Source: a virus. Taken from it: a stretch of 28,655 nt of DNA. This document shows positions 3,216 through 28,509 of the stretch, piece by piece. Positions within the stretch are counted from its first letter, which is position 1. Each line of letters opens with the position of its first letter. Made by a program: the position numbers and the translations under genes. The notes under the pieces are model-generated. The model was not told the DNA's origin, did no database searches, and saw only the letters and a program-made list of their open reading frames with translations. Where the stretch lies: the IMG/VR virus record IMGVR_UViG_3300027631_000100, positions 1 to 28,655 of that record; one strand, written 5' to 3'.

Positions 3216-3896
3216 TCATTTTCTATCCTTTATTATCTCATCAATTATTTTATACTCCACCGCCTCTTCCGCATCTAACCACAAATCACGAATCGCATCT
3301 TTTTTTACTTGTTCGGATGTTTTATCTGTATACTCACCCAACATTGTAAATATTTTATCATTTGTTTTTGTCCATTCTTTAAATTGAATTTCTGCAGCTG
3401 CAAATTCACCACCAAAACCACCAGAAGATTGGTGAATCATTGTTTTAGCATTTGGTAAAGAACATCTTTTACCCTTCGTACCTGCACCTAATATAAGAGA
3501 CCCCATTGATGCTGCAAGTATTAAATTAATTGTTCTAACATCACATTTAATATATTTCATTGTATCAATAATACCTAAACCACTAGAAACACTTCCACCT
3601 GGACTATTGATTTGGAATGTGATGTCGTTCGCATCAACACTATCCAAATATTGTAATTGTGCAATGGTATACATAGCCATAGTATCGTTTACTTCTCCCG
3701 CCAAAAAAATAATACGATCATACATCATACGGCTAAAGATATCTAAAGCGGTTGCGTTCATAGATCTCTCTTCTAAAACGTAAGGAGTTAAACTACTTTT
3801 AATTTGTTCTCCAACATAATGTTGTTTTAATGAACTAACACCAACACTTTTGGCAAACGATTGAAAATCGTTATAAAATTTTTCTTTCTGACTCAT
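3216..3896 (-). CDS. clpP: ClpP-family serine protease (S14)
   Basis: 226 aa, slightly longer than bacterial ClpP because of a ~45-residue N-terminal extension. ClpP forms barrel-shaped peptidase rings fed by Clp ATPases. The fold markers are present: INSPGGSV at 96-103, the nucleophile Ser130 in LAASMGSL, the base His155 in MIHQSSGG and Asp204 in IRDLWLDAEEAVEY, giving the full Ser-His-Asp triad. It ends in the usual 'EAVEYKIIDEI' helix. No Clp ATPase is visible in this window, so it may rely on the host ClpX/ClpA. In phages, ClpP-type enzymes can also act as head-maturation proteases; the nearby genes are for recombination rather than head assembly, so the target is open. The promoter-like TATATTTG upstream suggests it can be transcribed separately. 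Confidence 0.94.
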   Translation of the reverse strand: MSQKEKFYNDFQSFAKSVGVSSLKQHYVGEQIKSSLTPYVLEERSMNATALDIFSRMMYDRIIFLAGEVNDTMAMYTIAQLQYLDSVDANDITFQINSPGGSVSSGLGIIDTMKYIKCDVRTINLILAASMGSLILGAGTKGKRCSLPNAKTMIHQSSGGFGGEFAAAEIQFKEWTKTNDKIFTMLGEYTDKTSEQVKKDAIRDLWLDAEEAVEYKIIDEIIKDRK

Positions 3897-6275: not shown

Positions 6276-6282
6276 TAATTAA

Positions 6283-6942
6283 TTATTTATTTGCAAACAT
6301 AACTTCTCTTACTCTTTGTTGAGTAAATTCTTTTTCCATATCCTCTAATTCTTTTTGTGTTGGTCCGCAATATGGTCCATTTTCTAACCATTCTCCGTTG
6401 GGTTGTTTATTAAATGTACGTACAAACTCTTTTGGTATTACTATCCAATCTTCCGGATCATCACTATTACTAACTTTCCTATTAAAGACAAATTTGATTT
6501 TATTAAAGTCTTTTATTGTTTGAGCTTCTACCATACAAATTTGGTCAAATTGTGCATTAACTCTAAAATATATATTTTTATCATGACCTGGATGTGATGT
6601 CAACCATTTGCCAGTATTTCTTTCAGACAATTCACCCAACCCAAAATAAAACCATTTCCAATTTTGCATATTAAGACCCGCAAATCCGAGATTAAAAATA
6701 TCTTGTTGATTACCTGCCCATCTATCTCCCTGAAATGAACCATTTTCACCTTCAGCACCCCATGATGGGTTGTCTACACATACTAAATCAATACCATATT
6801 TGGTACCGCTAATGAATTTTAATCCCAATACTTTTTCCGCAAATGATATGAAAAGTTTTCTCATATCCTCATCATCAAATGGGTCTTGGATTACCTTACC
6901 ATTAATCCTTATGTATCTAAATTTTCTTTTTTGTTGTGACAT
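6283..6942 (-). CDS. hypothetical protein, possible PD-(D/E)XK-like nuclease
   Basis: 219 aa from the ATG at 6940-6942 (MSQQKRKFRYIRINGK), one base after the stop of the gene upstream. A longer reading would need a TTG start at 6966 and a 23-base overlap, so I prefer the ATG. It is not recognised. Residues ~44-75 contain YGIDLVCVDNPSWGAEGEN, which places Asp52 before the pair Glu64/Glu66. That spacing is reminiscent of PD-(D/E)XK nucleases, in which a D and an E(x)E/K pair bind metal, but the classical lysine is absent. Many aromatic residues follow (NWKWFYFGLGE). Its place between the two subunits of a DNA-end-processing pair is consistent with DNA work. The functional suggestion is tentative; the gene call is solid. 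Confidence 0.72.
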   Translation of the reverse strand: MSQQKRKFRYIRINGKVIQDPFDDEDMRKLFISFAEKVLGLKFISGTKYGIDLVCVDNPSWGAEGENGSFQGDRWAGNQQDIFNLGFAGLNMQNWKWFYFGLGELSERNTGKWLTSHPGHDKNIYFRVNAQFDQICMVEAQTIKDFNKIKFVFNRKVSNSDDPEDWIVIPKEFVRTFNKQPNGEWLENGPYCGPTQKELEDMEKEFTQQRVREVMFANK

Positions 6943-6943
6943 A

Positions 6944-7252
6944 TTACTTAATTCTACTTTCTTCAAAAAATTCGACGATTCCGTTTATTGCCCAAACTAT
7001 TCCTGCGGTAAACATACCATCAAAGAATAGATTAATAATCCAAAGGGTATCAAAATACTTTGTTGTTATGCTACCCAAAACAAGTGACATAAAAAATCCA
7101 ACCCAAGTTGAAGTACACAATGTACAACCTATTAAGTCACCAAAAAATTTTGAGTGTGCCTTTATCCATATACGTTGGTTTTCAAAAATAGAACCCCAAA
7201 TTAAAATGTTTGTCATTCCGTAGGCCATAAATGCCCATAATAATATTTCCAT
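6944..7252 (-). CDS. small membrane protein, DUF1360-like
   Basis: 102 aa, hydrophobic almost throughout, with about three membrane helices: residues ~3-22, ~45-62 and ~70-92. A conserved cytosolic/loop motif GDLIGCTLCTSTWVGFF places a CxxC pair just before a helix and resembles DUF1360 proteins (pattern 'L..C..C.GFWVG'), which occur in many bacteria and phages with no known function. An IFENQR motif after the first helix also fits that family. The next gene starts one base past its stop, so the two are coupled. No catalytic residues are visible apart from the cysteines. Confidence 0.72.
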   Translation of the reverse strand: MEILLWAFMAYGMTNILIWGSIFENQRIWIKAHSKFFGDLIGCTLCTSTWVGFFMSLVLGSITTKYFDTLWIINLFFDGMFTAGIVWAINGIVEFFEESRIK

Positions 7253-7300
7253 GTTTATATATTTTATAATAATATAATAAATTTTATTGTTAAAAACAAA

Positions 7301-7813
7301 TTATTCATCATATAAACTATTCAAATCACTATTCTTCATAAAAGAACCTTTGTTGAATTTATTTAATGCGTTTGTTAAAGTATCTAATTCTTCTTTTAAT
7401 TTACTATTTGCTTCTGTTAAAGTTATTAACATATTTTTACATTCATTATCCTCAATTAGTTTCTCAACGATTACCTCTTTGATTACTTCTTGAGTTATTA
7501 TTTGAGTTTCCCCTTTTACTTCAACAGGTACCTCTTTAATAACTTCTACTATTTTATCAACAGGGATTTCTTTGATAACTTCCACCTCTTTAATAACGTC
7601 TTGATAGATAATTTTTTCAACTGTCACCTCTTTAATGACTTCAACAATTTTTTCTTTTTCAGTTATATTTCCTGATGGTGTTTCACCATATTTTAACAAA
7701 GAAAACCCTCTATTGAAGGTTTCGTTTGCAATTTTACTTATATCTTTTATGTTATTTAACTCACAATAAAGAATAAACTCTTTATCCAAGGTTAACGTGT
7801 GTCTCTTCTCCAT
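7301..7813 (-). CDS. phage protein with RHH-like N-terminus and KEV/VEV repeats
   Basis: 170 aa from the ATG at 7811-7813; a TTG two codons upstream is also possible. It overlaps the end of the Mre11-like gene by 32 bases. Residues ~3-45 (HTLTLDKEFILYCELNNIKD, then ISKIANETFNRGFSLLKYGE) have the strand-helix-helix look of a ribbon-helix-helix segment, which would allow dimerisation or DNA binding. Residues ~50-120 are short KEV/VEV/PVDKIVEV repeats (EVIKEVPVEV), and the tail (~125-155) is a short leucine-containing helical region. The protein is very acidic and lysine-rich and has no signal or membrane segment. Function unknown; a scaffold or adaptor for the surrounding recombination proteins is only a guess. 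Confidence 0.7.
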   Translation of the reverse strand: MEKRHTLTLDKEFILYCELNNIKDISKIANETFNRGFSLLKYGETPSGNITEKEKIVEVIKEVTVEKIIYQDVIKEVEVIKEIPVDKIVEVIKEVPVEVKGETQIITQEVIKEVIVEKLIEDNECKNMLITLTEANSKLKEELDTLTNALNKFNKGSFMKNSDLNSLYDE

Positions 7814-8606
7814 TTTCAATTTCTTTTATGTCTGATATAGTGAAATGTAGGAATGGTTGTTCATTTGGTAAATCATGGAACGTGTACTCGTCTGTTGTAA
7901 CATCATATATACCGTACCCATGATGTTTAACGGTTTCACCAAAATTTTGTTGTATTAAACTACCGACCATTATTGCCTTTCCACCATTTGGTAATGTGAA
8001 TTGTTGTCTCTTGTGAATGTCACCACACAGTAATAAATCCAAATCAACAAAGTTTAATTGGTCATACGCATCTTCAAACTCATAACCTAAATCAGTTGAT
8101 AACCCCATAATAGGACCGTGAAATAACCCAACCGTCAATAACCCTTCTTGTTTTGTGAATTCAGGTCTTACATTATGTTGATATAACGAATAAACGACCC
8201 ATTGAACGTTACCATCGGTATCAACATAATCACCACTATCTTTTAGATATGTAATATGTGGATTGTTTAACAATTCAACAACGGGGGTTATACTATCCAT
8301 ACGTTGGGTATTATTCTCTAAAAAATCATGATTGCCGGGAATGATAACAATCTTACCATATTTGGTTAATTCTCTTAAAAACCAACTTGTTAAAAGTAAT
8401 TGTTCATTTGAGATATTAATTTTTTGATGTGCGATGTCACCCGCAATAACAATTCTAATTTCGTTGTGCGATATATTTTCATCTGACCATTCTAAAAATT
8501 TTACACTTAATTCATTCAAAAGTTTTTGGAGTTGTTCTCTATACAAATCATGCATTTGTATTGTGCGAATATGTAAGTCGGCAATATGTATTATTTTTTT
8601 TACCAT
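7782..8606 (-). CDS. Mre11/SbcD-like (T4 gp47-like) recombination nuclease subunit
   Basis: 274 aa calcineurin-type metallophosphoesterase; T4 gp47 is about 339 aa, so the C-terminal capping part appears short. The metal-binding motifs are complete and in order: IADLHIR (D10, H12), IAGDIAHQ (D57), IPGNHDF (N92, H93), LFHGP (H163) and CGDIHKRQ (D196, H198), followed by MVGSLIQQ. The enzyme cuts DNA ends together with the Rad50-like ATPase encoded at 3942-6275. Its start overlaps the upstream PD-(D/E)XK nuclease gene by seven bases, so the two are translated from the same message. The pair likely supports recombination-dependent replication of the phage genome, as in T4. Confidence 0.93.
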   Translation of the reverse strand: MVKKIIHIADLHIRTIQMHDLYREQLQKLLNELSVKFLEWSDENISHNEIRIVIAGDIAHQKINISNEQLLLTSWFLRELTKYGKIVIIPGNHDFLENNTQRMDSITPVVELLNNPHITYLKDSGDYVDTDGNVQWVVYSLYQHNVRPEFTKQEGLLTVGLFHGPIMGLSTDLGYEFEDAYDQLNFVDLDLLLCGDIHKRQQFTLPNGGKAIMVGSLIQQNFGETVKHHGYGIYDVTTDEYTFHDLPNEQPFLHFTISDIKEIENGEETHVNLG

Positions 8607-9460
8607 CTTTTAATATAGTTTGATAAATCCATTGTAAGGATTGCATTATTAATTTGGGGTGGAACTTTGTACTCTACAAATGTACCGTCATCTTTTAATA
8701 GAACCACAACATTTCCCAACAATTTAGTATCGTTGTATTTTGTTTCTTTTAACATTTTACGTAACAACCTACCATATAATGGAAGTTGTAAATAATAATG
8801 ACCTAATGCATTATCATGATAATTGTTAAATGGTGGGTACAATTTACCAGTATAATGATGTACTTCAAAGTTTTTTGGTTGATTTGTTTTCCAATCGGTA
8901 ATAACAAACCCAAAATTATCTTTCTCTTTAGTTTCCATTAACCACACCTTATCAGGTTGTCCTGTGTATTGTTCTTCAGGATCACCCAATACGATTTCAG
9001 TATCTAATAATACTCCACCTCTTTCTAACATTAAATCAAGAAATTGTTTTCCCGCAATAATCATATTATCACTCTTACGTTGTTGTTCTTCGTTGATTTC
9101 GAATATCGGTTGTCTAACTTCTTTGTAATTATCAAACCTACCAATCAAATCGGATTCCAATTCAAAGTGAACTCTACTACCCATGTTGGTTGATAGGTCA
9201 CCTGCTTGTTTCCATTCCGCGAGTAATTGTGCTTGACCTTCAGGGTCTCCTTTTGACATACGAAGTGCCATACCTTCAGCATCAAATGGTTTATGAAATT
9301 TCTTTATGATTTTAGAAACTGAAGGAAAATTCTTTTTAACAACACCGTCAACATCTTTCATGTGATAGATATGTTGTTCTTCTATGAATGTTAATTCTAA
9401 TTCTTGTCTTTTCTTTTCTAATAAGTCGTTAATCTCTAATGAGATGTCTTTTAAATTCAT
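8600..9460 (-). CDS. PD-(D/E)XK nuclease, RecB/Cas4-like
   Basis: 286 aa, length typical of stand-alone RecB-type nucleases of phages. The active-site elements are visible: a helix with GSRVHFELE (H98), Glu155 in LLDTEIVLG, TGQPDKVWL (D170), the core TDWKTNQ (D189, K191) and the QLPLYGRLL helix (Q225, Y229). The order H-E-D-DxK-QxxxY matches RecB/AddB/Cas4 family exonucleases. There is no CxxC cluster, so no iron-sulphur site is apparent. Its ATG shares a base with the primase stop (TAATG), and its 3' end overlaps the Mre11-like gene. It probably processes DNA ends during phage recombination or host-DNA degradation; the specific role is inferred. Confidence 0.9.
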   Translation of the reverse strand: MNLKDISLEINDLLEKKRQELELTFIEEQHIYHMKDVDGVVKKNFPSVSKIIKKFHKPFDAEGMALRMSKGDPEGQAQLLAEWKQAGDLSTNMGSRVHFELESDLIGRFDNYKEVRQPIFEINEEQQRKSDNMIIAGKQFLDLMLERGGVLLDTEIVLGDPEEQYTGQPDKVWLMETKEKDNFGFVITDWKTNQPKNFEVHHYTGKLYPPFNNYHDNALGHYYLQLPLYGRLLRKMLKETKYNDTKLLGNVVVLLKDDGTFVEYKVPPQINNAILTMDLSNYIKRW

Positions 9461-10404
9461 TAATCTAGTTGTTTTATTTTATAATTTTCTAATTTTCCTT
9501 GTAAGTCGGCAATATCTTTATCACCCTCTAATTTAATTGCAAAAACCCTACCCATTAATTTACCACAATTTAACTTATGATATAATCTTTCGGCATCATT
9601 CCAAGCATCTGGATCAAGAACAATAATTATTTTACCTTTAACCTTTTCATATAGAGTGTGAAATAAATGCTCACTCATAAATTTTCCTAACAATGGAATT
9701 GCGTTAGGTATGAATATACTATCAAATGCACCCTCCACAATGTATATTGTTTCATTCCAATCAACCAAGTACTCGTTGAATATGATGAGTTCCTTTTGTG
9801 CCTCAGGATTCTTATATTTCATCTTTGTTCTATTCAAATAAGAACGTGCAATAAAATAATTAATTCTCCTTTCACAATCATACGATGGGATGATAATTCT
9901 ATTTTCGTAGATACCTCTATAACAAAAACCAATGTTGTACATCTGTACCATTAAGTCAGTTATGTTTCTACTTTTTATATAGTTGTATGCTTGTTTATAA
10001 TATGGTGTCATTTTAAGACCCTCACTCGCTTCTTTAAATGGTATGAAGTCTTGGGGTAGTTTTACTGTTTTATAAACACGTTTACTAAAATCTTCACCTT
10101 CGTCAGGTTTCAATAATAGATAATTTTTTAATTGTTTTGGATTGCCGAATTTTTTAACCAATTTAAAAATTGATCCGTGAGTTTCGTGTGATTCGGCACA
10201 CACCCAACATTTAAAAACATTGTATTTGTAGTTGACCTCTAAATTTCCTTTTCCGTCACCGTGGTCCAATCCTTTTATGTCATATGAACACACTGGACAA
10301 TCAAAAGACATCTGTCCTTTATAATCATTATGCATATTAGAGTCACCCAAAATATCTTCGAGAATTTCAATAACAGGAGAATAGTCAACTTCTTGATTTA
10401 CCAT
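9460..10404 (-). CDS. DnaG-type DNA primase
   Basis: 314 aa from the ATG at 10402-10404. A GTG-initiated extension to 10458 would run into the terminator upstream, so I rejected it. The protein makes RNA primers for DNA synthesis. The N-terminal zinc ribbon uses four cysteines: CPVC (36-39) and CWVC (66-69). A TOPRIM domain follows, with IYIVEGAFDSIFIP (Glu224) and IIIVLDPDAWND (Asp264, Asp266), the metal-binding E and DxD. A helicase is not encoded in this window. The next gene overlaps its stop by one base (TAATG). A TATATTTC box is six bases before the ATG, so the gene can restart transcription after the terminator. Confidence 0.93.
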   Translation of the reverse strand: MVNQEVDYSPVIEILEDILGDSNMHNDYKGQMSFDCPVCSYDIKGLDHGDGKGNLEVNYKYNVFKCWVCAESHETHGSIFKLVKKFGNPKQLKNYLLLKPDEGEDFSKRVYKTVKLPQDFIPFKEASEGLKMTPYYKQAYNYIKSRNITDLMVQMYNIGFCYRGIYENRIIIPSYDCERRINYFIARSYLNRTKMKYKNPEAQKELIIFNEYLVDWNETIYIVEGAFDSIFIPNAIPLLGKFMSEHLFHTLYEKVKGKIIIVLDPDAWNDAERLYHKLNCGKLMGRVFAIKLEGDKDIADLQGKLENYKIKQLD

Positions 10405-12816: not shown

Positions 12817-15800
12817 TTAATTACCAGGAACCGAATAGCAATCGGCATTACCGATACAATTCCCGTTTGGACCTGAACGTGTTATTCCATTTGCTGTTCC
12901 AATCGATTGATATACCGGCCAAGCTGATGTATCTAGTAATGTTGGTTCAATTTCAGTACACACAGAATATGCATAAACACCTTCAGAAACTTGTACAGAT
13001 GCTATTCCATTAAATTGAGAATATGAATCCACGGATGTTCCAACCGCTCTATATCTTACACCATAATTGGTGTCACTGGCATACGCAATTTCAAGAGTAT
13101 ATGTATAACATTGACCGAATGCCTCCGTTGTTGGTGTTGGGGTTGGTGTAGGAGTTGGTGTTCCCATTACACTAGCCGCAGGTGTGTTAGTTGGTGTGTT
13201 AGTTGGTGTACTCGTTTGGGTGGCAGCTGGTGTAGATGTTGGGGTTTGCGTAGGAGTTGTTGTTCCCATTACACTAGCTGCAGGTGTACCTGTTGGTGTA
13301 CCTGTTGGTGTAGATGTTTGAGTTGATACGGGTGTGCCTGTTGGCGTAGATGTTTGAGTTGCTACAGGTGTACCTGTTTGGGTGGCTGTTGGTGTAACGG
13401 TTTCTGTTGGGGTAACAGTATTTGTTGGTGTAATAGTATTTGTTGGCGTAACAGTATTTGTTGGCGTTTGCGTAGGCGTTTCTGTTGGTGTAACAGTATT
13501 TGTTGGCGTAACAGTATTTGTTGGCGTTTGCGTAGGCGTTTCTGTTGGTGTAACAGTATTTGTTGGCGTTTGCGTAGGCGTTTCTGTTGGTGTAACAGTA
13601 TTTGTTGGCGTAACACTTGCTGTTGGGGTATTTGTTGGTGTCGCAGTTGGCGTTGGCGTTTTAGTTTGTGTAGGTGTAGGTGTTGGTGTTTTAGTATTTG
13701 TAGGTGTTGGTGTTGGTGTTAATGGCGGTAATTTATAACATTGAAAATCAATACTGTTCCTATCTTCCGTGGTATTATAATCATTTGGTGTACCATATCT
13801 CGGTCTAAGGTATGTATGTTTTGACCTGTTAAATAAATTATTTTCAGTTAAATTTCCTCCTGTCCATAAAGTCGTTGCGGGAATAAATTGTTCGATAATT
13901 TTCATCCAATTAGGACTCATTTTAGTTATGAACGTATTTAAATCGACATCATTATAAGGAACAAAATTTGTATTTGTTACATATTCGTTATAAACCTGTT
14001 CCAAAGAAAAATATGATTTATTATATTTTGATTCGCTTGTGGAAATAAAACCATTTAAAATTTCTTTAGTAAATTCTTCAAATGTTACACCTGACGTATA
14101 TTGTGGTGTAACTCCTCCGATTGATATTTCTAAATTTCTTGACTGTCTATAAATGTCATATTCAATGCACTGTGCTGAAGATAAATAAACTCCAATATTC
14201 TTTCTATTAAGAATTAATTTAGAATTGTATTCATCATCACTAACACTTATTTTTAAATTGTCTATTTTAGGTTCTAATTCAAATCCAGATTCTAATCCAG
14301 GTAATGTTCTAAAATAGTTAAAATAATCCTCACCATATGTATAATCTTTAGGTTTGGTTTTAATAGTTTTAGTTCTTCCTGTTAATTGGAAAACTCCATT
14401 AATAGTTGTACCACTAGATGTACTTTCATCAATAACATCTGACGATCTATGACTTAAAGTTAAATCATACCAACCTGAACCCTTTTGGAAAAATATATCA
14501 TCTTTTAAATTCGTTATTTTTCTTGGTAATCCATCACTATCTATTGGATACTCGTCTCTTGTTAGATTAGTTGTTCCTGTTATTGTATTTTCAGTAAATC
14601 CAGTTCCATTATAACCCGTAATAACAAATTCAGTTTTTGTACCTTGTATTAAATCGTACAATTCAGTTTGTACTGAATCATTTAATTTTGATTTTACTTT
14701 ATAAACGTATTCGTTTATTTTAATCATTGGTTCAGGTGCACCTAAAAATCTTAAGAAAAATTCAATTGAATTTCTTGTTCCTTTTGATTTATAAATGTGT
14801 GAAAGATTAACTAATAATCTTCTATAAAATTCGTGTTCAGACTCAATTAGGTTTTTACCAATTGATTGTCCTCCATATACACTATCTTGTCTTGTATATA
14901 AAGTATCTTCTATATTTTGTTCTTCAAATAAATTATGTGAATCTAATCCTAAATTATCTGATAAATTCTTTAATAATAAATCAGGAACATTATTGATAGC
15001 GTCATATGTAACATTTCTCATGTTAGCAATGTTATCAATATATTTCTTTACTCTATCGAAACTTTGTCCATATAATTGAAATATTGTTTCTCCCTTTTTA
15101 TCATTAGTATCAAATTCGAATAATTGTGGTGCTGCTAAAAATCTAACAACCAAGTTAGATTTATAATCGTCTATCTCGTCAGCTAAATCACTTAACTTTG
15201 AAATGTAATCATCAAAATCTAATCCTACAGTTTGTAAGTTCCAACCATCTAACGCCAATGGCCAATTAACTTCAATTGTTACAATATCTGTTGTCCCACC
15301 ATCAAAACTATCTCTTGGTACTTTAAAACTCGCTTCGTATTTTGGATTGGTTTCTCTATTAAGTAATAGTTCTTCTAAATCATCTAAATTATTAAAGAAC
15401 TCCTCTGTTATACCATTATTGGGTCTAATTAAAAAACTATCCGTGGTTCCTGTAAGTACACCAAATGGGTTACCCGAAACTTTTAAAATAATATTTGTGG
15501 TACTTGTTGGTTCAGAATATGTTAAGATATCATATGTTGCTCCACTATAGTCTACAACGTATTTTTTGTATGTGGAATAAAAATTCCTAAAATTATTACT
15601 TGTTTCATTAATCGTTAAACTTTGTGGTTCATTGATAACAATATCAAATGGATTATATAAACTTGATTTTTCTATCTCAAATTGTGTTGTTTTCGATAGT
15701 GTATCATATATAATATTTTGAGCCGTATAATCTGAAATTCTAACAGGTATTGTACCATCAACATAGAGAGCGGCGGGAAACTTTTTTACAATTCTTGAAA

Positions 15801-16134
15801 TTGAAACGTTTAACCTTTGTTTTAATGAACCAAATAAAGATTTACCAGCGTCGTCAGTACTACCTTTAAATTTAATACTTTCTTTTTTCTCCGTAACACC
15901 ATCTTGTGTTGTTACTGCGGTGGTTTCTTCTTTTAATGAATCTAAGGTTAAGAAATCCGAAAATGGTGATGTTTTAAAATTCTTACTATCTCTTTGTGGG
16001 ATAATTTTATCCAACGCAAAGTTAGTATTAGTTAATTGACTACTACCATCGGTAATTTGTACACCAACTAAACTATCACTAAACGTTTGTAATCCATTTG
16101 CCGCTTGGCTTGGTACCTTTGTAAATTTTGCCAT
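12817..16134 (-). CDS. baseplate protein, P2 gpI-like core with PT linker and C-terminal beta domain
   Basis: 1105 aa. The N-terminal ~800 residues are the structural part. Residues ~421-467 ([20 protein letters not shown], then [20 protein letters not shown]) match the 'YRRLL...I...KGT...I...LR.LG' signature of phage tail protein I (P2 gpI), a baseplate wedge component. A TPT linker of about 200 residues (about 800-1005) follows, made of [22 protein letters not shown] and similar units. The last ~100 residues (CYTYT...VRYR...YSVC) form a Cys-containing beta domain also found at the C-terminus of the 2594-aa protein. Fusion of a linker and a display-type domain to a baseplate subunit is unusual. 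The ATG shares its A with the upstream stop (TAATG). Confidence 0.85.
13120..13735 (-). repeat. low-complexity tandem-repeat DNA encoding the PT linker of the 1105-aa protein
   Basis: Imperfect GTTGGTGTA/TTTGTTGG units encode TPTNTVTPT-type repeats. The clearest part is an exact 60-bp tandem pair at 13441-13500 and 13501-13560, followed by a third copy at 13561-13602 that lacks 18 bp. Long ORFs in other frames here are by-products of the periodicity. Confidence 0.9.
13441..13602 (-). repeat. 60-bp exact tandem repeat (two full copies and a third shortened by 18 bp)
   Basis: 13441-13500 and 13501-13560 are identical over all 60 bases. 13561-13602 continues the pattern with an 18-base, in-frame gap. 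Each copy adds 20 residues of linker (the third 14), so copy-number change keeps the reading frame. Confidence 0.95.
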
Positions 16135-18428: not shown

Positions 18429-21400
18429 CTAACTTGGGTTTATTAGACAAAAACCATTTGTTGAACATTCTTCAGTACCTGGAATCCATATGTTAGGACA
18501 TGTTACTTCACTTCCGTATTGAACACAAACAGGTATAGCATATGAAGAACCTGTTTTAACACATATACCTGCAGTGTATGTACCGTCACCATTATCCATA
18601 CTTTCAAGATCTATTATTCTTACTGTTATAACATCAGTATTAATGTCTCTATATCTTACATACAAGTCACTTGGTACTGAGCTATACGTATATGTGTAAC
18701 AAATAGCGTTTGCTGTAACTGTTGCACATGGTACCTCAACTTGTCCAGCATTTGCTTGACATCCATTTGCATCGGTAACTTGTAACCAATAATAACCACA
18801 AGTTAATCCTGTAACAACTATAGCAGGTGCTGTATGTGGTACATCAGTATATGTTGCAATTAAATTATCAGTTGGGTAGTGGTTATATGGGGACGCCGTA
18901 TCTTTATATAATCGATATGTCTTAGACCATACACCTCCACTAGAAGAAATTGTTATTGATCCATCATTGTCCGCAACAGATGCTCCTACTACATTATACA
19001 TTGATGCCTCTTGTAGTGATGGTTGGGTGATTGTTACGGTGTAATCTTTCCAACATGTTTCAGCCGCATTATAAACTCTGAAGGTATAACTACCAGCAAG
19101 GAATTGATACATTATTGAATAATTCGTTCCAACATTATATCTTGTGGTATTTGAACCAGTGAAACTACTTCCAGAATTAAATCTAAAGAATGTACTTGTT
19201 GATGATTGTCCTGATGTTCCAATAGATGTAGATCCTCCATGACAACTTATAGTACCAACTGAAAGGTTTGCATTTGGTATTCCCGTATTTAGGTCAACAG
19301 AGTTTCCTGTTGATGGTGATTCGCAATCACTACTATCTCTAACTCTTATATAATAAGTTCCTCTTGCTAAATTAATAAACTGTGCACTTTCTTGGTACGT
19401 GTCACCATTATCAATACTATAGTTATATACACCTGATCCTCCGCCAGCATTTATTGTGATGCTACCATTTATACTATCCCAACATGTTGGATAACCCACA
19501 CTTGATACACTTGCAGTAATTGCTCCAGGTATTGTAATAGTACGTGAATATTCAGTTACGCATGGAGTGCTGTCTTTAACAAAAACACTATAAGTGCCAG
19601 TAGTTGTATACGAATATGTTTGTGGTGCATCTAACCAATCACCATTGGTTCCCTTTCTAACTTTATAACCAGTTCCAGAACCACCTGTTGGACTTGATAT
19701 AGTTATTGTACCCGAATTTCCAGGACATGTTGGATTAGATACACTAACCGTTGCAGTTACTTGTGAAGGTTCGGATACTACAACTCCATATGAAAACTCA
19801 CAATCATCTTTATCTCTAAGATAGATATAGTATGTTCCTCCTCTTAATCCACCCCAAACTAATGTGGTTCCCGGCCAATTAGTCCAATCACCTGAACCTA
19901 ATTTATATTTGTAAGTTCCTCCATTTCCACCACTTACTGAGTTTATCGTTATTGAACCGGCGTAAATACCATCACTATTTTGTTCATAACAAGTTAAGTT
20001 TGAAACGGTATAATTCATCGCAGGATGTGATTTAGATAATGTTACATTATTGGAGAATGCCGTACAATAATTACCATCAACAACTAATACTGAATATGTT
20101 CCAGTTGGTTTATTTGAGAATGTGCCGGTTGATTGTTGTTCACCATAACTAGATTCATTACTACTAATATAATATGTGTAACTTCCTGAACCTCCAGAGG
20201 CGGTTGCAACAACTGAACCTGTGTTACCTGTATAACATGTTGGGTGATTTCCTACCGCTAATGATACTGTTAATGCCGTTGGTTGGGTTACTACTACTGA
20301 ATACCAATCACTTTCACAATCAGATGCGTCCTTTACTTTATAGTAATAAGTTCCCGCCGTTTTACCGGTATATTCTCTACTTGTTGTGGTAGTTTGGTAA
20401 GTTCCTCCTGACATTGCATTAACATCACTAAGTTTAATTGTATATGGTCCTCCCTGTCCTCCACCCATAGAAGAAATTACAATTTTACCGCTCGAGTTGC
20501 CATTACAATCAACATTAGTAACTACAGTTGATGCTGATGGTTGGCTTCTGGCCAAATCAATTCCAAAAACAGATGAAACACAACTTGGTGTATTTCTATC
20601 TCTTATTTTTGCATAATAATATCCACTAGATAAACTATTAAATGTTGTTCCTGTTTGCCATGTTCTACTAGCATTAGCAGTATCAGTATTTAATGAAATT
20701 GAATAATCATATAAACCTGAACTACCAGACCCGGACAATATTATTTGTCCTGTTGTACCAGTCCAACATGTTGGTTTTGTTGTTGAGGCCGTTGTTACAC
20801 TAAGTTGTGTTGGTTGTGTTATTGTTGCCGATGTGTAACCAGTTTCACCAAAACTATCTTTTGCATAGATATTATAATCTCCAGCGGTTAAACTACCGAA
20901 TGTTGCGCTAGATTGATAATCCACATTATTTCTAGAGTACGTGTAATTTGCGGTACCACCAACAACATTACTTACAGTAATTGAACCGGTACTACCATGA
21001 CATGTTGCATTGGTTACTGATAATGTTGGTGTTATTGTTACATTGGTTATCGAAATGAATAATGTTCTTTCAAATGTTAAACTTGTACTATCTGTTACTC
21101 TTACATTAATTTGGTATGTATTTTTTGTTTCGTAATCAAAAACGGCAGCACTTTTTAATACACCTGACGCAATTGAGAAACTATTGTTATCTGGATAATT
21201 TACACTATCAACTAATGCAAATGTCATTGCACCACCTTCTTGGTCTGTTGCTGAGAATGTTCCGATTGTAGTTCCTGTTGGTACATTTTCAGATATTGAT
21301 GCGGAACTTAATGAAATGTTAGTAGGTGCTTCATTTACGTTTGTAACAGTAATTCCAGAAAATATTCCTTCGTAATATAATCCAGCTGCATCTGTTGTTC

Positions 21401-24400
21401 TTACTCTTATAGAATAAGAGTTTTTAGTTTCATAATCAAATACAATTGCATTTCTTAAATTAGCTCCACTAATACTAAATGATGAGTTATTAGTAGCACC
21501 TTCTCCAGCAGTTAAACTATAAGTAAACGTATCTCCACTATCAACATCTAATGTTGAGAATGTACCAATTGTTGTTCCTGTTGCAGTATTTTCAGCTTGT
21601 GATTGGTTACTTAATGTTAATCCATAAGGTGCTTCATTAACGTTAACAATATTAATTGTAAATTGTTTTTCAGTAAATTGTCCAATACTATCTGCACTTC
21701 TAACTCTAATTTTATATGAATTTTTTGATTCATAGTTTGGTATAAATGCATTTTTTAATAATGAACCCGATATTGTAAAACTACCATTGTTATCGTCTCC
21801 TGTACCCGCAACTAATGAGTAGGTATATGTGTCACCCGGATCAAGACTTGTTGAGCTAAATGTACCGATAGTTGTACCTGTTGCGGTATTTTCATTTATT
21901 GAATCATTACTTAACGAAATATCTGTCGGTGGATAGTTTGGAGTTGATGATGGAGTTGGTGTTGGTGTTGGTGTTAATACTTGAACCGATAATCCGAACT
22001 CACAAATTGTTGTTGGTGTTGGTGTTTGCGTTTGAGTAACGGTTGGTGTAACCGTTTTTGTAGGTGTTATGGTTGGTGTTACTGTATTTGTTGGTGTTAC
22101 ACTTGGCGTTAATGTTGGGGTTTGAGTTTGAGTAACGGTTGGTGTTGGTGTTGGTGTTAATATAATCACTGATAAACCAAATTCGCAGACAGTTGTTGGT
22201 GTTGGTGTTTGCGTTTGAGTAACGGTTGGTGTAACAGTTGTTGTTGGTGTCACTGTTGGAGTAACTGTACTTGTTGGTGTTAATGTTGGTGTAACTGTAC
22301 TTGTTGGTGTTAATGTTGGTGTAACCGTCATCGTTGGTGTAGGTGTAGGTGTAGGTACCGTATAACAATCTCCCGTTTCCAAAATTCTAATATTTGCAAC
22401 AGGAGAATAATTAACCTCATCTTGTGAACCTTTTAATGATTTATAAGCAATCGGTTGAGTTATTGTATATATACCTTCGGTAACATTTGAATATATTGTA
22501 TCAACTATACCTGTACTTATGTCAAATTCATCATATTGTACGTAACCAAATGAATCCACAATGTATGTTGTTCCACTATAATATTCACATGGATCCACAC
22601 CCGCACTTTGTGCAAATGAACCTTGTTCAAATGTTGTTTTATTAAATGGATTTGGTGAATCCCAACTTGTTATATCAACACTTGTTATTGTACCACCACT
22701 ATATGGAATGTTTAGTTGGACAAATTTAGTTGTTTCATTTGGTCCAATAGTTACATTTTTTGTTGCAAATAATACCGTACTTCCCGTGTAAATGTTTACT
22801 GTAAATGTAATTCCAACAAATGTTGGTGATGCGTTTCCATTAGAATCAAAAACATTAAAATTTAAACCATTATCATCATTATCTAAATCACAAACCTCGA
22901 CGGTATTAATAAAAAGCGTTTGTGGTTTATAGTATGTAAATACTACACTATCAAAAGGATAAACTTCCCTAAATGAAGATTCATTTGCTTCACTATATGT
23001 TGTTGCCGATAAGTTGTTATCATAAAGATAAAAACTTTCAGGATTTAATCTATTTTTTACTATACCTTTATTAATTGTATCTCCAGTATAAAATTGATTC
23101 GTATTCCAATTTGTTATAAGACCGTCAAAATCATTTGCAAACGATAATGATAAATCACTTGGGTTATATGAATCTATAAACCAAGCACTTGTATAATCAA
23201 AATCAACACCATTCAAATTATAAGTTCCACCATTCATTTGTGATGTTAAAGAAGTTGTTCCTGAAAAAATATCAGTAACAATACCATATTGAACTTTATA
23301 AAATACTAAATTATTCTTTTTATAATCTCTATAATATCCATTTAATGCCGATAATTTTCCGTCAACGTCATAATATAATTTTTTATTTATTGTGACACCT
23401 AAAGAATCTGAATTATCATACCAAAGTTCAAAATAATTTGGCACCATTTCTAATTTTAATTCATGTGTAAAATATGTTTCAATATTAATTATACCTGGTT
23501 TTCTTTCTGCCGATACTGTACTTGTACTTAATGAAGTCGTTAAACTATCAATATAAGCCTGTGCTTGATTATCCGCGTCTTGTTGTGATACCATTGACAC
23601 AATATACCCAGCAGGAAGTGAGTATGATATTGGTACAGGGTTATTTAATTCACCGATTATTGTTGAACTTTGTCCATCACCAATTAACGAAATTGCGTTA
23701 CTACTATATAGTGGTGGGTTAGTTGAGTATTTTTCAGGGAAACCAAAAATATAAGATAGAAAAAATAATCTATGTACGTCGGTAATATATTCTCTTTTTG
23801 TTACATCACTTAGAATATCAACTTCATTATACGTTTTAATTCCGTCAACATATTTGTATGATAATTTTCTAGTTGTTGGCGGCCCAAAAATTGGTCCAGC
23901 TGGTACATAATATATATACCCACCATCTGAATAGTACCCACCTATGTCTCCAGTTAAATTATCATATTTTTTAATAACGGAATCACTATTATTTAAGAAA
24001 GGTTTATTTGAAAATCTTCTTCTAAAATATTTTGGTCTTTGTACAAATAATTTTTGTTGTGGAATTATTAAATAAACAATTGCCACGAAAACTAAAAGAG
24101 GCCAAATAAATCTAACTAACGTTACTGCAATTTTATTCCACACTCCACTTAATCCATTTGAAATTAGAGCCGTTTTTGTGGCATCTGTAAAAAGACCTAA
24201 AGTATGAGTTTCAAAGTAATTAGCCACAAGACCTCCTCCACCAGCCCACAATTTGAACTTATTGTCTGGCATGTATTTTATCAAATCGGGAATACTACTT
24301 CCACCGACATACCCTCTTGTCATATAATTCACACAATGTTCAAATCCTGTGGCGGGTATATGTCTTTCATTTCCAAAATCATAAGTTGTAAATGTGTTAT

Positions 24401-26213
24401 TATTTACATCATACTCATTTGACGTTAATCCACTCCAACCTAACAAATATGAATAAACAGATGGCTGTAATAAGTCTGCACCATTCATTATTTTATTTAG
24501 AGTTCCAACACCAACCATTGTGGGTTGTACATCTGCAGGTATATACCTTACATTTGTATCGAATGTAAAATCAGCAGGTGGATTTGTATAAAATTCTCTG
24601 AAATTAATCATTGCAGTATTGAAAGGTCCCCATATAACTTCATTAGTTCGTCTTGGGCCGAATAACCATTTTGTAACAACGTAATTTACTTGTAATCCGA
24701 ACTCTCTTTTAAATAAATTACCAACTTGATAAACTTTATTTGTTGGTGAGGTTCTTACACTATCTCCATAAAAATATGGTAAAGCTGGTGTTGATAATAA
24801 GTCATCCATCCAAATGTAACTACCCTTTACAGAATAATTATTCGTTGATCCTGACCATTGTGATATCGGTAACTTAGACCAAATTTTAGTAACAAATGTT
24901 GGATTATGGTACGCATCATATGGTGAGTATGGGTTTACTCCCATATCATAACCATATATCTGATTACCGCAACCAATTGTAACTTTCACATTAGTTGTGC
25001 CTCCATTGAATGATTTATTTTGACCCACAGCCAATCTAAGATTAACCATTCCACTTTTTGTAACAACATAAAATGTTTTAGAGGTGTTAAAATTTCTTGG
25101 TCCAATTTTTATAAAAGCACCTTCACCAAGTTTATATCTTACTTTTATTAAACTATAAGGTGTTACAACATTATATGTGCCAGAATTTCCAGAATTATAT
25201 GAATATGAAACTTCACCAATTTGACCACCATATAATCCATCAGTTATTAATAATGATACATCTTCAGCACTATCTGTGGCGGTAACTGTTACAGGTACTA
25301 TTCTATTTTGAGTTGCAGTACCCGCTAATACATTCTTAATTGCGTATTTTAATCCATTTGGTTTAATACCTTCCGTTCCGGGTATAAAAGGGGTACTTTC
25401 AGTATAATCACTTAAATTAAACGGTATTGTTAATTCCCCTGTACCGCAACCATAACCGTCACCAAAACAGTTACCTAAATATTCAAATTTGTGTGTTGTT
25501 GAATTATAACTATATTTTGTTCTATTATTTAAATCTCCAATACTTAATGTTAAAGTTTCATTACTACTAATTTCAGTTTGTAAATATGGATCAACGTACC
25601 ATGGTCCAACTGTAAATGGTGTATAGTCAGTAATGTTTTTATTCACTAAACCAACAATTGGTGAATTAGGTAATTTTTCTCTATAATATGTAACTATTTG
25701 TGGACAAGTTGAACAATGTTGGGTTGAGGATGTAAACCCTCTACAAAATTCAGCAAAAATTAATGATGGATTACAATCTAATTCTACGTTGATTGCTCCA
25801 CTTGTTCCATCGGACGTAATAACATCTAACATAATAAAACCATTATCTTCGATATTTGCATCCATCAAAAATTGGTGATATTTTATTGTTTGTGTAGATA
25901 TATTACCTAAATCATATTCATCTAATATTCTTAGAACTCCGTCTACTTTGTATTTTACTCTTACTTTAACTTTTGTTGACCCAATATTTGGATTTATTGG
26001 TGTGAATATAAATTTTAAAAGTTTTAATACTTTTGGTATTTTAAAAACATATGATAGTTTTAAATCAGGTAATTGTGATCTTAATAAATAAAATGAAAGT
26101 CCACTATGTGTACCGTTTCCGGTCCATGTTAAATTTTTGGTGACACCACATTCGTGTGATAGATTATCTGGTGCCTCCCCCGCTACTGTACAATTTATTT
26201 CAAATGAACTCAT
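18429..26213 (-). CDS. giant fibre/adhesin-like structural protein with cadherin-like and SprB-like repeats
   Basis: 2594 aa, by far the largest gene. Rough order: N-terminal structural region (1-690); one strong hydrophobic helix (~700-722, VTLVRFIWPLLVFVAIVYLI) followed by a basic stretch (RPKYFRRRFSNK); a DUF5977-like segment near residues 860-895 (SYSLPAGYIVSMVSQQDADN); further beta modules; a double PT linker (~1285-1425) with CEFGLSV inserts; three cadherin-like domains (~1426-1720) with NVNEAP joints; about nine SprB-like repeats (~1725-2500), each with a Cys, a GSITI-type strand, a GG loop, and GTYYIYLRD or similar ending; and a C-terminal CYTYT domain. No secretion signal or T9SS sorting tail is seen. 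Probably a host-binding fibre or central tail protein. SprB repeats are known from the Flavobacterium gliding adhesin. Confidence 0.88.
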   Translation of the reverse strand: MSSFEINCTVAGEAPDNLSHECGVTKNLTWTGNGTHSGLSFYLLRSQLPDLKLSYVFKIPKVLKLLKFIFTPINPNIGSTKVKVRVKYKVDGVLRILDEYDLGNISTQTIKYHQFLMDANIEDNGFIMLDVITSDGTSGAINVELDCNPSLIFAEFCRGFTSSTQHCSTCPQIVTYYREKLPNSPIVGLVNKNITDYTPFTVGPWYVDPYLQTEISSNETLTLSIGDLNNRTKYSYNSTTHKFEYLGNCFGDGYGCGTGELTIPFNLSDYTESTPFIPGTEGIKPNGLKYAIKNVLAGTATQNRIVPVTVTATDSAEDVSLLITDGLYGGQIGEVSYSYNSGNSGTYNVVTPYSLIKVRYKLGEGAFIKIGPRNFNTSKTFYVVTKSGMVNLRLAVGQNKSFNGGTTNVKVTIGCGNQIYGYDMGVNPYSPYDAYHNPTFVTKIWSKLPISQWSGSTNNYSVKGSYIWMDDLLSTPALPYFYGDSVRTSPTNKVYQVGNLFKREFGLQVNYVVTKWLFGPRRTNEVIWGPFNTAMINFREFYTNPPADFTFDTNVRYIPADVQPTMVGVGTLNKIMNGADLLQPSVYSYLLGWSGLTSNEYDVNNNTFTTYDFGNERHIPATGFEHCVNYMTRGYVGGSSIPDLIKYMPDNKFKLWAGGGGLVANYFETHTLGLFTDATKTALISNGLSGVWNKIAVTLVRFIWPLLVFVAIVYLIIPQQKLFVQRPKYFRRRFSNKPFLNNSDSVIKKYDNLTGDIGGYYSDGGYIYYVPAGPIFGPPTTRKLSYKYVDGIKTYNEVDILSDVTKREYITDVHRLFFLSYIFGFPEKYSTNPPLYSSNAISLIGDGQSSTIIGELNNPVPISYSLPAGYIVSMVSQQDADNQAQAYIDSLTTSLSTSTVSAERKPGIINIETYFTHELKLEMVPNYFELWYDNSDSLGVTINKKLYYDVDGKLSALNGYYRDYKKNNLVFYKVQYGIVTDIFSGTTSLTSQMNGGTYNLNGVDFDYTSAWFIDSYNPSDLSLSFANDFDGLITNWNTNQFYTGDTINKGIVKNRLNPESFYLYDNNLSATTYSEANESSFREVYPFDSVVFTYYKPQTLFINTVEVCDLDNDDNGLNFNVFDSNGNASPTFVGITFTVNIYTGSTVLFATKNVTIGPNETTKFVQLNIPYSGGTITSVDITSWDSPNPFNKTTFEQGSFAQSAGVDPCEYYSGTTYIVDSFGYVQYDEFDISTGIVDTIYSNVTEGIYTITQPIAYKSLKGSQDEVNYSPVANIRILETGDCYTVPTPTPTPTMTVTPTLTPTSTVTPTLTPTSTVTPTVTPTTTVTPTVTQTQTPTPTTVCEFGLSVIILTPTPTPTVTQTQTPTLTPSVTPTNTVTPTITPTKTVTPTVTQTQTPTPTTICEFGLSVQVLTPTPTPTPSSTPNYPPTDISLSNDSINENTATGTTIGTFSSTSLDPGDTYTYSLVAGTGDDNNGSFTISGSLLKNAFIPNYESKNSYKIRVRSADSIGQFTEKQFTINIVNVNEAPYGLTLSNQSQAENTATGTTIGTFSTLDVDSGDTFTYSLTAGEGATNNSSFSISGANLRNAIVFDYETKNSYSIRVRTTDAAGLYYEGIFSGITVTNVNEAPTNISLSSASISENVPTGTTIGTFSATDQEGGAMTFALVDSVNYPDNNSFSIASGVLKSAAVFDYETKNTYQINVRVTDSTSLTFERTLFISITNVTITPTLSVTNATCHGSTGSITVSNVVGGTANYTYSRNNVDYQSSATFGSLTAGDYNIYAKDSFGETGYTSATITQPTQLSVTTASTTKPTCWTGTTGQIILSGSGSSGLYDYSISLNTDTANASRTWQTGTTFNSLSSGYYYAKIRDRNTPSCVSSVFGIDLARSQPSASTVVTNVDCNGNSSGKIVISSMGGGQGGPYTIKLSDVNAMSGGTYQTTTTSREYTGKTAGTYYYKVKDASDCESDWYSVVVTQPTALTVSLAVGNHPTCYTGNTGSVVATASGGSGSYTYYISSNESSYGEQQSTGTFSNKPTGTYSVLVVDGNYCTAFSNNVTLSKSHPAMNYTVSNLTCYEQNSDGIYAGSITINSVSGGNGGTYKYKLGSGDWTNWPGTTLVWGGLRGGTYYIYLRDKDDCEFSYGVVVSEPSQVTATVSVSNPTCPGNSGTITISSPTGGSGTGYKVRKGTNGDWLDAPQTYSYTTTGTYSVFVKDSTPCVTEYSRTITIPGAITASVSSVGYPTCWDSINGSITINAGGGSGVYNYSIDNGDTYQESAQFINLARGTYYIRVRDSSDCESPSTGNSVDLNTGIPNANLSVGTISCHGGSTSIGTSGQSSTSTFFRFNSGSSFTGSNTTRYNVGTNYSIMYQFLAGSYTFRVYNAAETCWKDYTVTITQPSLQEASMYNVVGASVADNDGSITISSSGGVWSKTYRLYKDTASPYNHYPTDNLIATYTDVPHTAPAIVVTGLTCGYYWLQVTDANGCQANAGQVEVPCATVTANAICYTYTYSSVPSDLYVRYRDINTDVITVRIIDLESMDNGDGTYTAGICVKTGSSYAIPVCVQYGSEVTCPNIWIPGTEECSTNGFCLINPS
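21945..22365 (-). repeat. tandem-repeat DNA encoding the double PT linker of the 2594-aa protein
   Basis: GTTGGTGT-rich repeats. Two exact 30-bp units lie at 22261-22290 and 22291-22320. An exact 44-bp direct repeat (22009-22052 and 22193-22236) marks a larger ~184-bp duplication that carries TPTPTT(V/I)CEFGLSV, so a whole linker-plus-insert was copied. Confidence 0.92.
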
Positions 26214-26532: not shown

Positions 26533-28509
26533 TTATAAACATGTATAATTTTGTAATCCAACTTCACCAGTTATTTTATTATAATCATATCCACTGGCAC
26601 CTAATGCCGGAATTGGAGAGTAGACGAAATAATTTAAATTAAACGGTGTTGTTCCAGCAGCATCTTGGAAAATATACCTTGGTGGTGCAAATAATTGAGT
26701 TCCAGGTACGTAGTAGAAACTAATTGGATATCCTCCACACATATTATTATTATCTTTAACATTAGAGAACCAACCATTAAAGTGATATTCAGAATTAACA
26801 TCGTTATAGTATATGTCCGCAGGGGTTACCGTTCCTGAACATAACGCACCTTGTGAAATAGATACTCCTTCTCCGTATCCACTGTCCTTAACCCCACAAG
26901 TTGTGAATATCTCTCCAGATATTAACGTTCTTGTTCTCCAAGCTCCAACACAACTAACCCATCCAATTGTTGTATCCGTTTCACCACCATTAGAAACAAA
27001 TGTTAATTCTAAACAATCGTCAGTTCCTGCGTTACATGAATAACCACTATATAATTCTGTGAACACCGCTAAATCTGCAAATGGGGTACCAGCGGCTAAT
27101 GATTCATAAACATAACAATCATCTATTCTATGCATTCCGGTTGATGATACAAACTTATAAACGGTGTCTGTGTTGGTATCGTATTTAATATATCCAGTAT
27201 TTGTCACATTTATTTGAGTTCCAGTTACATAAGTTTTTGTCACTAAATTACTACCACAATCTAATGTACTAGGACACTCCATTTTAATTGTTAATGTGTA
27301 TGGTATAAAGACGTTTTCATATGCGGTTGAATACACGACTACGTCCATTGTGGTTTTTTCTTTTGTACTATAAAAACCAACTACATCTTCTTGGTAAACA
27401 ACTTGTCCAGGTGTTGATGTGTATAATTCCCCTATTCTTTCATCATGATTACCAACAAATACCTCGTCTGATGAATTTAATGATGTGTACGATACCGTTA
27501 CAGGTACGTTACCATAAGTTTGACCAATATCAAATTTAGTGTTTATATATGTATAACCCGGTGATGAAATAGTAAATTGATATTCGGTATTACTACACGA
27601 AACACTTCTAAATGTAATACCTAAAGTTGCACAATCTCCATCTTTTTCCACTAATCTAGAATTATTTTGTGGTGATGTACATTCTTCACCATTTTGTATA
27701 CAAACATATGGTTCAGTTGAACAGTTATCACTACAAATGTAATTTGTATATGTACCTGGATTTGTGAATGTCAAATATGACATATCTCCAGTAGATGTTC
27801 CACATTGATAATAATAAACATATACTTTACCGTCAGTGCTTAAATTAATATCACCTTGTGTGATAACAATATCATATGACGTACATCCTTCACAACTTCT
27901 TGGTGTACTTGTAGGTGTAGGTGTAGGAGTTTTGGTTGGGGTTGGGGTTATTGTCTTGGTTGGTGTTAATGTTGGTGTAACAGTTGTAGTTGGTGTAACA
28001 GTTGGTGTAACAGTATTCGTAGGTGTCACACTATTAGTAGGTGTCACACTATTTGTTGGTGTTTGTGTATTAGTAGGTGTTACACTTGGTGTAACAGTAT
28101 TTGTTGGAGTAACGGTAGGAGTAACGGTCGCCGTTGGTGTAACAGTATTTGTAGGTGTAACCGTTGGTGTAACAGTATTTGTAGGTGTAACCGTTGGTGT
28201 TGCGGTTGGCGTAACCGTCATTGTTGGTGTAACAGTTGACGTTGGTGTAGGTGTTGGAGTTAATGGCGCTAAAGGTTTATCTAAAGTGTTTTCACAAATA
28301 AAATCGGTATTTTTGACAATAATTTTAGTTGTCTCTAATGGTACTGAAACTAAAACTCCATCATAAAAAGTTAATTGACTTAATGTTAAACCTGTTGCAG
28401 GACTATTTTCATAGTATAGAGTCGCCAATGTGGACAAATCATCATAATAGATGTTGTAAGGTCCAATTGCGGAGTTCCCCTGAAGTTTAACATATATATA
28501 CCTTACCAT
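26533..28509 (-). CDS. fibre-like structural protein with PT linker and Cys-rich modules
   Basis: 658 aa. The N-terminal ~80 residues ([40 protein letters not shown]) form a beta domain that resembles the 'GPYNIYY...L..L..G..V.VP' module of Bacteroidetes-phage structural proteins (recalled, not searched). Residues ~82-205 are a TPT linker ([27 protein letters not shown]). Residues ~206-658 hold several small Cys-containing modules: [10 protein letters not shown]..., [18 protein letters not shown] and [20 protein letters not shown]. One of these resembles GYVQYDEFDISTGIVDTIYS in the 2594-aa protein. No catalytic motif, signal or membrane segment. Probably a fibre or receptor-binding accessory. 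Confidence 0.82.
27895..28265 (-). repeat. tandem-repeat DNA encoding the PT linker of the 658-aa protein
   Basis: GTAACAGTATTTGTAGGTGT-type units, including two exact 30-bp copies (28141-28170 and 28171-28200). A ~22-base GTAACAGTATTTGTTGG-containing stretch is also shared with the 1105-aa gene. Confidence 0.92.

Follow-up and report, generated by a model that had tools for sequence, protein, structure and literature searches.

SprB-like and cadherin-like repeats in a putative tail-region adhesin of a large contractile-tailed phage

Repeats of the SprB family (PF13573) are known from the gliding adhesin SprB of Flavobacterium johnsoniae and from other Bacteroidota proteins, and modular adhesins of immunoglobulin (Ig)-like domains are described for Bacteroidota phages of the gut (PMC13370021, accessible part). 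Little is known about which receptors flavobacterial phages use; the gliding machinery has been put forward as receptor (accessible parts of PMC7345892 and PMC13288928). Among open-licence PMC papers no earlier report of SprB repeats in phages was found by title or abstract start; the SprB of PMC8987985 is, in the accessible text of that paper, an unrelated Bacillus protein. Here we describe an open reading frame (ORF) of 2594 residues (26213-18429, minus strand) in the IMG/VR virus record IMGVR_UViG_3300027631_000100, analysed over its 28,655 bases (the window). Its C-terminal half carries three cadherin-like and nine SprB-like units, which we consider probably to form an Ig-like stalk of the kind seen in host adhesins. 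The stalk would be exchangeable and would present a swappable tip, on a tail-region adhesin of a large contractile-tailed phage.

A first-pass annotation, made from the letters alone, had placed about nine SprB-like and three cadherin-like repeats between 21941 and 18720 (residues 1425-2498), and the profile searches bear this out. In the Pfam scan the whole protein matches SprB at E 2.8e-30 (104.1 bits, curated cut-off 28), with four stretches passing alone, and Cadherin PF00028 at E 1.1e-20 (74.3 bits, cut-off 28.8), with two stretches passing alone and three stretches found in relatives. The SprB search of the window gives six matches (units 1, 2, 3, 4, 7 and 9), four of them above the curated cut-off (1, 3, 4 and 7). 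Our own hidden Markov model (HMM), which was built from the window units themselves and fits them by construction, puts nine contiguous units of 77-99 residues each on the array, filling residues 1727-2498. An HMM of 317 bacterial units detects eight of the nine at an independent E-value (iE) of 5.2e-7 or better (unit 8: iE 0.13), and has no match in 200 composition-preserving shuffles of the array. These bacterial units had themselves been selected with the phage-unit HMM, so this test is not fully independent, and Pfam is the independent evidence. A cysteine pair (Cys12...Cys65-75) is present in 7/9 units, unit 1 lacking the second cysteine and unit 9 the first; at least two cysteines remain in 56 of 66 units from the tail phages and in 295 of 317 bacterial ones.

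SprB repeats (PF13573) occur in 76 of 296 Bacteroidota genomes and in none of 14 controls. They are present in 34 of 36 genomes with GldJ above cut-off versus 42 of 260 others (p 4e-21, each genome counted as independent), a strong association with gliding genes that is yet not confined to genomes with such genes. Of 395 Bacteroidota genomes, 126 have matches to the cadherin-SprB module of the related contig L007; the highest-ranking ones involve cadherin domains (43-55% identity over 200+ residues), and the SprB part of the module reaches about 27-44% among the matches listed. Both domain types occur together in at least one of 41 scanned bacterial loci, these loci being short. The bacterial ORF concerned (genome G227) has, besides an LRR_5 domain and nine MBG_2 domains, two cadherin-like domains with three SprB units immediately after them; Pfam itself passes one of the cadherins. 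Because this ORF joins two cadherin-like domains to three SprB units in a genome with GldJ above cut-off, a host-derived origin of the phage module is plausible. Two other bacterial proteins with related cadherins have type IX secretion system (T9SS) domains, and one of these adjoins PorP/SprF.

The predicted fold bears on a different explanation, by which the units would be generic Ig-like decoration domains of phages that resemble SprB by convergence or deep Ig-fold ancestry. A model from cadherin 3 to unit 3 is all beta (mean predicted local distance difference test score, pLDDT, 78), and its top seven Foldseek matches are fragments of the Aureispira grappling-hook protein GhpA (E 3e-12 to 7e-10). 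By structural Z-score the GhpA fragments reach 8.8-10.3 over about 300 residues at a root-mean-square deviation (rmsd) of 12-13.5 (best 10.3, 308 residues, rmsd 12.2), which ties with fibronectin (10.4) and NCAM2 (9.7); a sequence search at E 10 does not recover GhpA. The modelled fold is that of a generic Ig/fibronectin type III (FN3) sandwich chain, uninformative on function. The tie with fibronectin favours the generic explanation, as do the top PDB hits by sequence for the phage-unit profile, both to decoration proteins (5lxk, presumably from phage T5, E 2.4e-4; 8zvi, E 8.5e-4). Against it, no PHROG family matches the ORF at E 0.01, the Pfam family that does match is SprB, and the bacterial-unit HMM detects the array. 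Furthermore, a bacterial SprB array searched against 50,697 phage records (E 0.01) has 11 matches, all flavobacterial or uncultured: five Cellulophaga, four Polaribacter and one Tenacibaculum phage and the uncultured LR756502 (642 kb). The units are nearer to Bacteroidota adhesins than to known phage domains; we reject generic Ig domains as the leading explanation on these grounds and hold it to be the least probable of those weighed. What the first-pass annotation made of the repeats stands in part: an adhesin module of the type found in Bacteroidota, gliding species included, and plausibly host-derived. Its suggestion that the virus could bind the same surface polymers or the gliding track is the unsupported part and is taken up below.

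The array of L007, searched at E 1, has six phage matches: LR756502 (E 2e-11), and four Polaribacter phages and one Leeuwenhoekiella phage at E 0.2-0.3. In Cellulophaga phage phi19:1, gp98, a virion protein annotated from tandem mass spectrometry (MS/MS), carries a SprB-like unit with 41.8 bits to the combined unit HMM; the same HMM gives 43.9 bits for Polaribacter phage P12002S, 39.8 for Nekkels and 33.8 for Arctus, the best of 100 shuffles reaching 6.5. Near gp98 lies a pectate lyase gene (gp102; L095, 7402 onward), likewise annotated from MS/MS proteomics. LR756502.1 (L030, 12802-17814) encodes a protein of 1670 residues with a signal-peptide-like N-terminus, 13 SprB stretches by Pfam, a PKD domain and a CHU_C T9SS domain. 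In the tree 11 of its 12 units cluster among those of bacteria, separate from the tail-phage units, and a scan of viral contigs with this protein found no relative. It reads as a host-type exported adhesin within a phage record.

Window genes include a sigma factor, a head maturation protease, SbcC/SbcD, a primase, an exonuclease, a RuvC-like resolvase and a homing endonuclease. The related contig G002 (150,872 bases) has genes for a baseplate wedge, a tail sheath, a ribonucleotide reductase and a DnaB-like helicase; the virus is therefore a contractile-tailed phage. The SprB gene of G002 lies on the strand of the wedge gene, about 14 kb downstream, with other large ORFs in between, of which two contain Pro/Thr linkers. 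Flavobacterium phage immuto is arranged likewise, its wedge gene being followed by large ORFs, a tail fibre and tail spikes; the profiles of the scaffold and of the neighbouring protein P0002 have no counterpart in the stretch of immuto that was searched. The wedge protein matches eight phage records, namely four of Flavobacterium immuto (28%), two of Streptomyces, one of Microcystis and one uncultured. For NrdA the nine best matches among 4833 records are Tenacibaculum phages pT24 and Larrie, Cellulophaga phages and the uncultured LR756502, at 50-53%. Shine-Dalgarno-like motifs are found in 0 of 20 window ORFs (0.5 expected from shuffles) and in 3 of 111 ORFs of at least 100 residues in G002 (3.5 expected). 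Together, the motif counts, the wedge and NrdA suggest that this is probably a phage of Flavobacteriia. A terminase search with phrog_2 yielded no more than weak matches, in 2 of 7 records, which do not enter the argument. No tRNA was found in the window or in G002.

Relatives of the ORF fall into eight complete scaffold protein types, all with SprB units by our own HMM: nine in the window and in L010, six in L007, L046 and L050, five in L108, and three in L058 and L103. The L007 type is identical in four contigs, L107 is one residue off L103, and L013, cut off by a contig edge, and L012, whose sequence begins inside the gene, are left out. Pfam calls SprB in five types (window, L007, L010, L046 and L050). 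The bacterial-unit HMM detects 2/3 units in L058, 2/3 in L103 and 4/5 in L108 with iE no higher than 1.3e-9, the last unit giving a weak match, and has no match in 150 shuffles. Cadherins are found in 5/8 types by BLAST, own HMM or Pfam. A separate ORF encodes the cadherin-SprB module in L048 (= L049), L051, L052 and L056, where a scaffold-like ORF stands by itself; the identity of the latter is 27-28% in L048, L051 and L056, and in L052 the contig edge truncates it. The module proteins of L048 and L051 begin like the window protein P0003 (36-37% over 67 residues, E 3e-7 to 9e-7 in a three-sequence comparison); a P0003-like anchor in L056 is seen solely via an anchor HMM that includes L056. 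Two adjacent L056 ORFs, a short one without SprB (4966-6039) and that of the module (6048-9866), are both found by this HMM, of which the latter is part, as if duplicated.

Outside the hydrophobic part of the scaffold, L046 shares 40-60% of the window scaffold, 88% of the first cadherin and 94% of unit 1; L010 shares 75-87% of the scaffold and 100% of units 4-6 and of the tip; L007 shares 88-98% of the scaffold and 27% of the tip. L007 and L046 are 53% identical in scaffold and 84% in tip. Thirteen tips form six types. The window shares its type with L010 (100%), seven L007-like viruses share another (61-94%), and the remaining four tips each stand alone; identity between types is 18-42%. Tip type does not follow scaffold. 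The end of P0002 shows a weak relation to the tip (a comparison of the two sequences gives 28% over 60 residues, E 2.5e-4), which would fit a tip family common to several proteins. These patterns show that the cadherin-SprB module and the tip are exchanged by recombination and placed on different anchors. A diversity-generating retroelement was considered as a source of tip variation and rejected: none of the three relative contigs searched, possibly incomplete ones, has a reverse transcriptase.

The repeats had been judged from their divergence not to be a recent expansion, and for this virus that judgement is sound. Identity among the window units is 15-41%, and units group by array position across four viruses, some groups with weak support, which rules out a recent expansion of the array here. 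L007-type viruses have six units, namely 1-4 as in the window, then a fifth that differs and one related to unit 9. The array is older than the split of these viruses. In a wider tree of 120 units (42 of 78 phage and 78 of 317 bacterial units; single-unit trees are weakly resolved), unit 2 of L048 and L056 clusters with unit 1, so single units have also been replaced. The ratio of non-synonymous to synonymous substitution rates (dN/dS) is 0.19-0.27 for the cadherins (five pairs). Four pairs give 0.24-0.29 for units 1-4; the ratio is 0.26-0.43 for units 5-8 (81 codons only in three pairs) and 0.18-0.62 for unit 9, partly at high dS. Selection is mostly purifying.

In the reading we regard as probable, the ORF would encode an adhesin of the tail region, either of the baseplate or of a fibre, in a phage that infects Flavobacteriia or related Bacteroidota. 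The N-terminal scaffold would fix the protein to the virion, the Pro/Thr linker and the Ig-type cadherin-like and SprB-like domains would make up a long stalk, and the small C-terminal tip would touch the cell surface in a specific manner. Host adhesins would probably have been the source of the stalk domains, long ago, the phages now swapping stalk and tip by recombination and joining the module to various anchors. Unit number runs from three to nine, cadherins come and go, cysteines are kept and tips are swapped whole, as one would expect of a stalk that is adjustable in length and carries a swappable contact domain. That the repeats are mainly stalk is argued, short of proof, from the swapping of tips as whole types.

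Several results weigh against this reading. No Pfam tail-fibre family matches the ORF at E 0.01, and the scaffold model (pLDDT 35.6) has no usable fold and was not used; with no PHROG match either, the virion location is argued from gene neighbourhood and remote precedent. The precedent is one of remote relatives because Pfam calls SprB in none of the phi19:1 gp98, Nekkels, P12002S and Arctus proteins. Nor does Pfam call SprB in L058, L103 and L108. The scaffold has a hydrophobic stretch, unusual in a fibre, in 12/12 sequences examined (Kyte-Doolittle 2.15-2.69 over 19 residues). The best match of the baseplate wedge is an uncultured 484-kb phage, and the Microcystis phage ties with immuto at 173 bits. 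The nearest sampled bacterial units share no more than 25-46% identity with those of the window, too little to reveal a donor. Forcing the 30 tail-phage units together is not rejected (p 0.495 in the approximately unbiased test), and a single origin is not shown either. The dN/dS of units 1-4 is 0.53 in L050 and that of unit 9 is 0.62 in L007, both at high dS. Finally, the tip is not simply hypervariable, nor is it hypervariable within a type, one type being common to seven viruses at 61-94%; the SprB units are constantly present, which allows for a binding role of the repeats.

Such a role is the strongest of the competing explanations, although in our estimate an unlikely one. The SprB and cadherin repeats would themselves bind, with the ligand preference of host adhesins, to the polymers or surfaces on which gliding hosts crawl, or to the gliding machinery, and would bring about more host encounters. 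The tie of SprB repeats to genomes with GldJ speaks for it, as does the presence of SprB units by own HMM in 8/8 scaffold types while cadherins and tips change. From the literature, in the accessible parts of the papers, come the statements that the gliding machinery likely includes the receptors in F. columnare (PMC7345892), that phages may use SprB and RemA as receptors (PMC13288928) and that Bacteroidota phages have modular Ig-like adhesins which bind epithelium (PMC13370021). On the other side stand the generic Ig/FN3 fold, the variation in unit number and the occurrence of SprB repeats in genomes without clear GldJ. More doubtful still is a bolder version, in which phages of gliding flavobacteria would have domesticated the motile-adhesin module of the host as an exchangeable virion stalk and its SprB-type units would engage the same polymers or the gliding machinery, gliding cells capturing or carrying the particles before injection. 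Hitch-hiking by binding is disfavoured for lambda, which was mostly moved by fluid flow and rarely bound cells (PMC10434198, accessible part).

The hydrophobic stretch of the scaffold (residues 699-717, 24119-24063, minus strand; poorly conserved in sequence among relatives) bears on a further explanation, that the protein is no virion part and instead a membrane protein of the infected cell, displayed on its surface and, for example, aggregating cells or excluding other phages. The eight most hydrophobic 19-residue segments of the ORF all start within residues 694-706, and the stretch could serve in membrane contact during entry or point to membrane insertion. Its presence in all scaffolds examined, and the signal-peptide-like start and T9SS domain of the LR756502 protein, favour a protein of the infected cell. 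The ORF itself has no N-terminal signal peptide recognised by hydrophobicity, no signal-peptide program having been run (N-terminus MSSFEINCTVAG), and the Pfam scan (E 0.01) found no T9SS C-terminal sorting domain (CHU_C, Por_Secre_tail) in it. The gene moreover adjoins tail genes, and in L048 and L051 the module protein begins with a short anchor, after a separate scaffold ORF. We rate this explanation as very improbable. A T9SS-exported protein of host-adhesin kind is ruled out for the window ORF by its N-terminus and the Pfam scan; it fits LR756502.

Table 1. Coordinates of the cadherin-SprB ORF parts and of two neighbouring proteins in the window.
Feature	Position	Strand	Evidence or remark
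N-terminal scaffold, residues 1-1285	22359..26213	-	relatives 30-98% identical by stretch, hydrophobic part excepted
Pro/Thr-rich linker, residues 1286-1424, two CEFGLSV inserts	21942..22358	-	P or T = 87/139 residues
Three cadherin-like domains, residues 1425-1726	21036..21941	-	PF00028 E 1.1e-20
SprB-like unit 1, residues 1727-1804	20802..21035	-	Pfam, own HMM, bacterial-unit HMM
SprB-like unit 2	20541..20801	-	Pfam below cut-off, own HMM, bacterial-unit HMM
SprB-like unit 3	20271..20540	-	Pfam, own HMM, bacterial-unit HMM
SprB-like unit 4	20025..20270	-	Pfam, own HMM, bacterial-unit HMM
SprB-like unit 5	19761..20024	-	own and bacterial-unit HMM; without own Pfam match
SprB-like unit 6	19518..19760	-	own and bacterial-unit HMM; without own Pfam match
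SprB-like unit 7	19278..19517	-	Pfam, own HMM, bacterial-unit HMM
SprB-like unit 8, weakest (bacterial-unit HMM iE 0.13)	19011..19277	-	own HMM; without own Pfam match
SprB-like unit 9, longer (97 residues)	18720..19010	-	Pfam below cut-off, own HMM, bacterial-unit HMM
C-terminal tip domain, residues 2499-2594, stop included	18429..18719	-	L010 100%; 11 other compared tips 21-32%
P0003, neighbouring Pro/Thr-linker protein	26533..28509	-	N-terminal ~65 residues resemble start of L048/L051 cadherin-SprB ORF
P0002, neighbouring Pro/Thr-linker protein	12817..16134	-	C-terminus weakly related to tip

Within the scaffold, DUF5977 is found just below threshold at residues 858-890 (23642-23544, minus strand; 24.5 bits, cut-off 25) and above cut-off in the relative L050 (29.6 bits), so that the scaffold belongs to, or borders on, this family, whose name carries no function. 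Long Pro/Thr linkers (TPTPTxT) occur in three separate window ORFs (22358-21942, within 12817-16134 and within 26533-28509, minus strand), with further ones in relatives. The GC skew, taken over segments of the record, is positive in, among others, 13001-14000 and 21001-23000. The homing-endonuclease ORF (2474-3199, plus strand), with PHROG matches including one of the GIY-YIG type, adjoins the head maturation protease gene (3216-3896) on the opposite strand.

A phage adhesin of host-adhesin-type modules is a defined, expressible protein for testing how phages find gliding cells, and recombination is seen here to place one adhesin module on more than one anchor. Direct binding by the repeats, if true, would be the more exciting outcome.

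With SprB of F. johnsoniae and the SprB-repeat proteins of Bacteroidota the ORF shares the repeat family and the string of Ig-like units, the comparison being made at the level of the family, and the combination with cadherin-like domains recurs in the bacterial adhesin of G227. Unlike the gliding adhesin, it has no recognised signal peptide and no T9SS domain, its N-terminal scaffold and tip are different, and its units stand at 25-46% to the nearest sampled bacterial ones. The virion structural proteins of Cellulophaga phi19:1 (gp98), Nekkels_1 (gp50), Polaribacter P12002S (gp28) and Leeuwenhoekiella Arctus_1 likewise have a SprB-like unit in a tail-region protein, but with one or two units by own HMM, no array and no cadherin, in a different protein. 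The LR756502.1 protein is alike in being a phage-encoded SprB array (13 Pfam stretches) and differs in its signal-peptide-like start, its CHU_C T9SS domain and its repeats, 11/12 of which fall with bacterial ones. Cadherin-like domains are also present in proteins of Caulobacter, Brevundimonas and Rhizobium phages, whose hosts are alphaproteobacterial; these match at 25-34% over at most residues 1431-1802, hardly past the cadherins. Aureispira GhpA shares the fold alone. The gut-phage adhesins of Bacteroidota (BACON, PKD and Ig-like domains; PMC13370021, accessible part) are likewise modular Ig-type adhesin proteins, from which this one differs by its SprB and cadherin modules, by belonging to a large contractile-tailed phage and by an adhesion that is here putative. 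Their trait of Ig-type domains in exchangeable combinations recurs in the three to nine units, the variable cadherins and the different anchors and tip types. The cadherin-SprB phage protein would thus be a modular Ig-like adhesin of Bacteroidota phages, distinguished by its SprB and cadherin modules.

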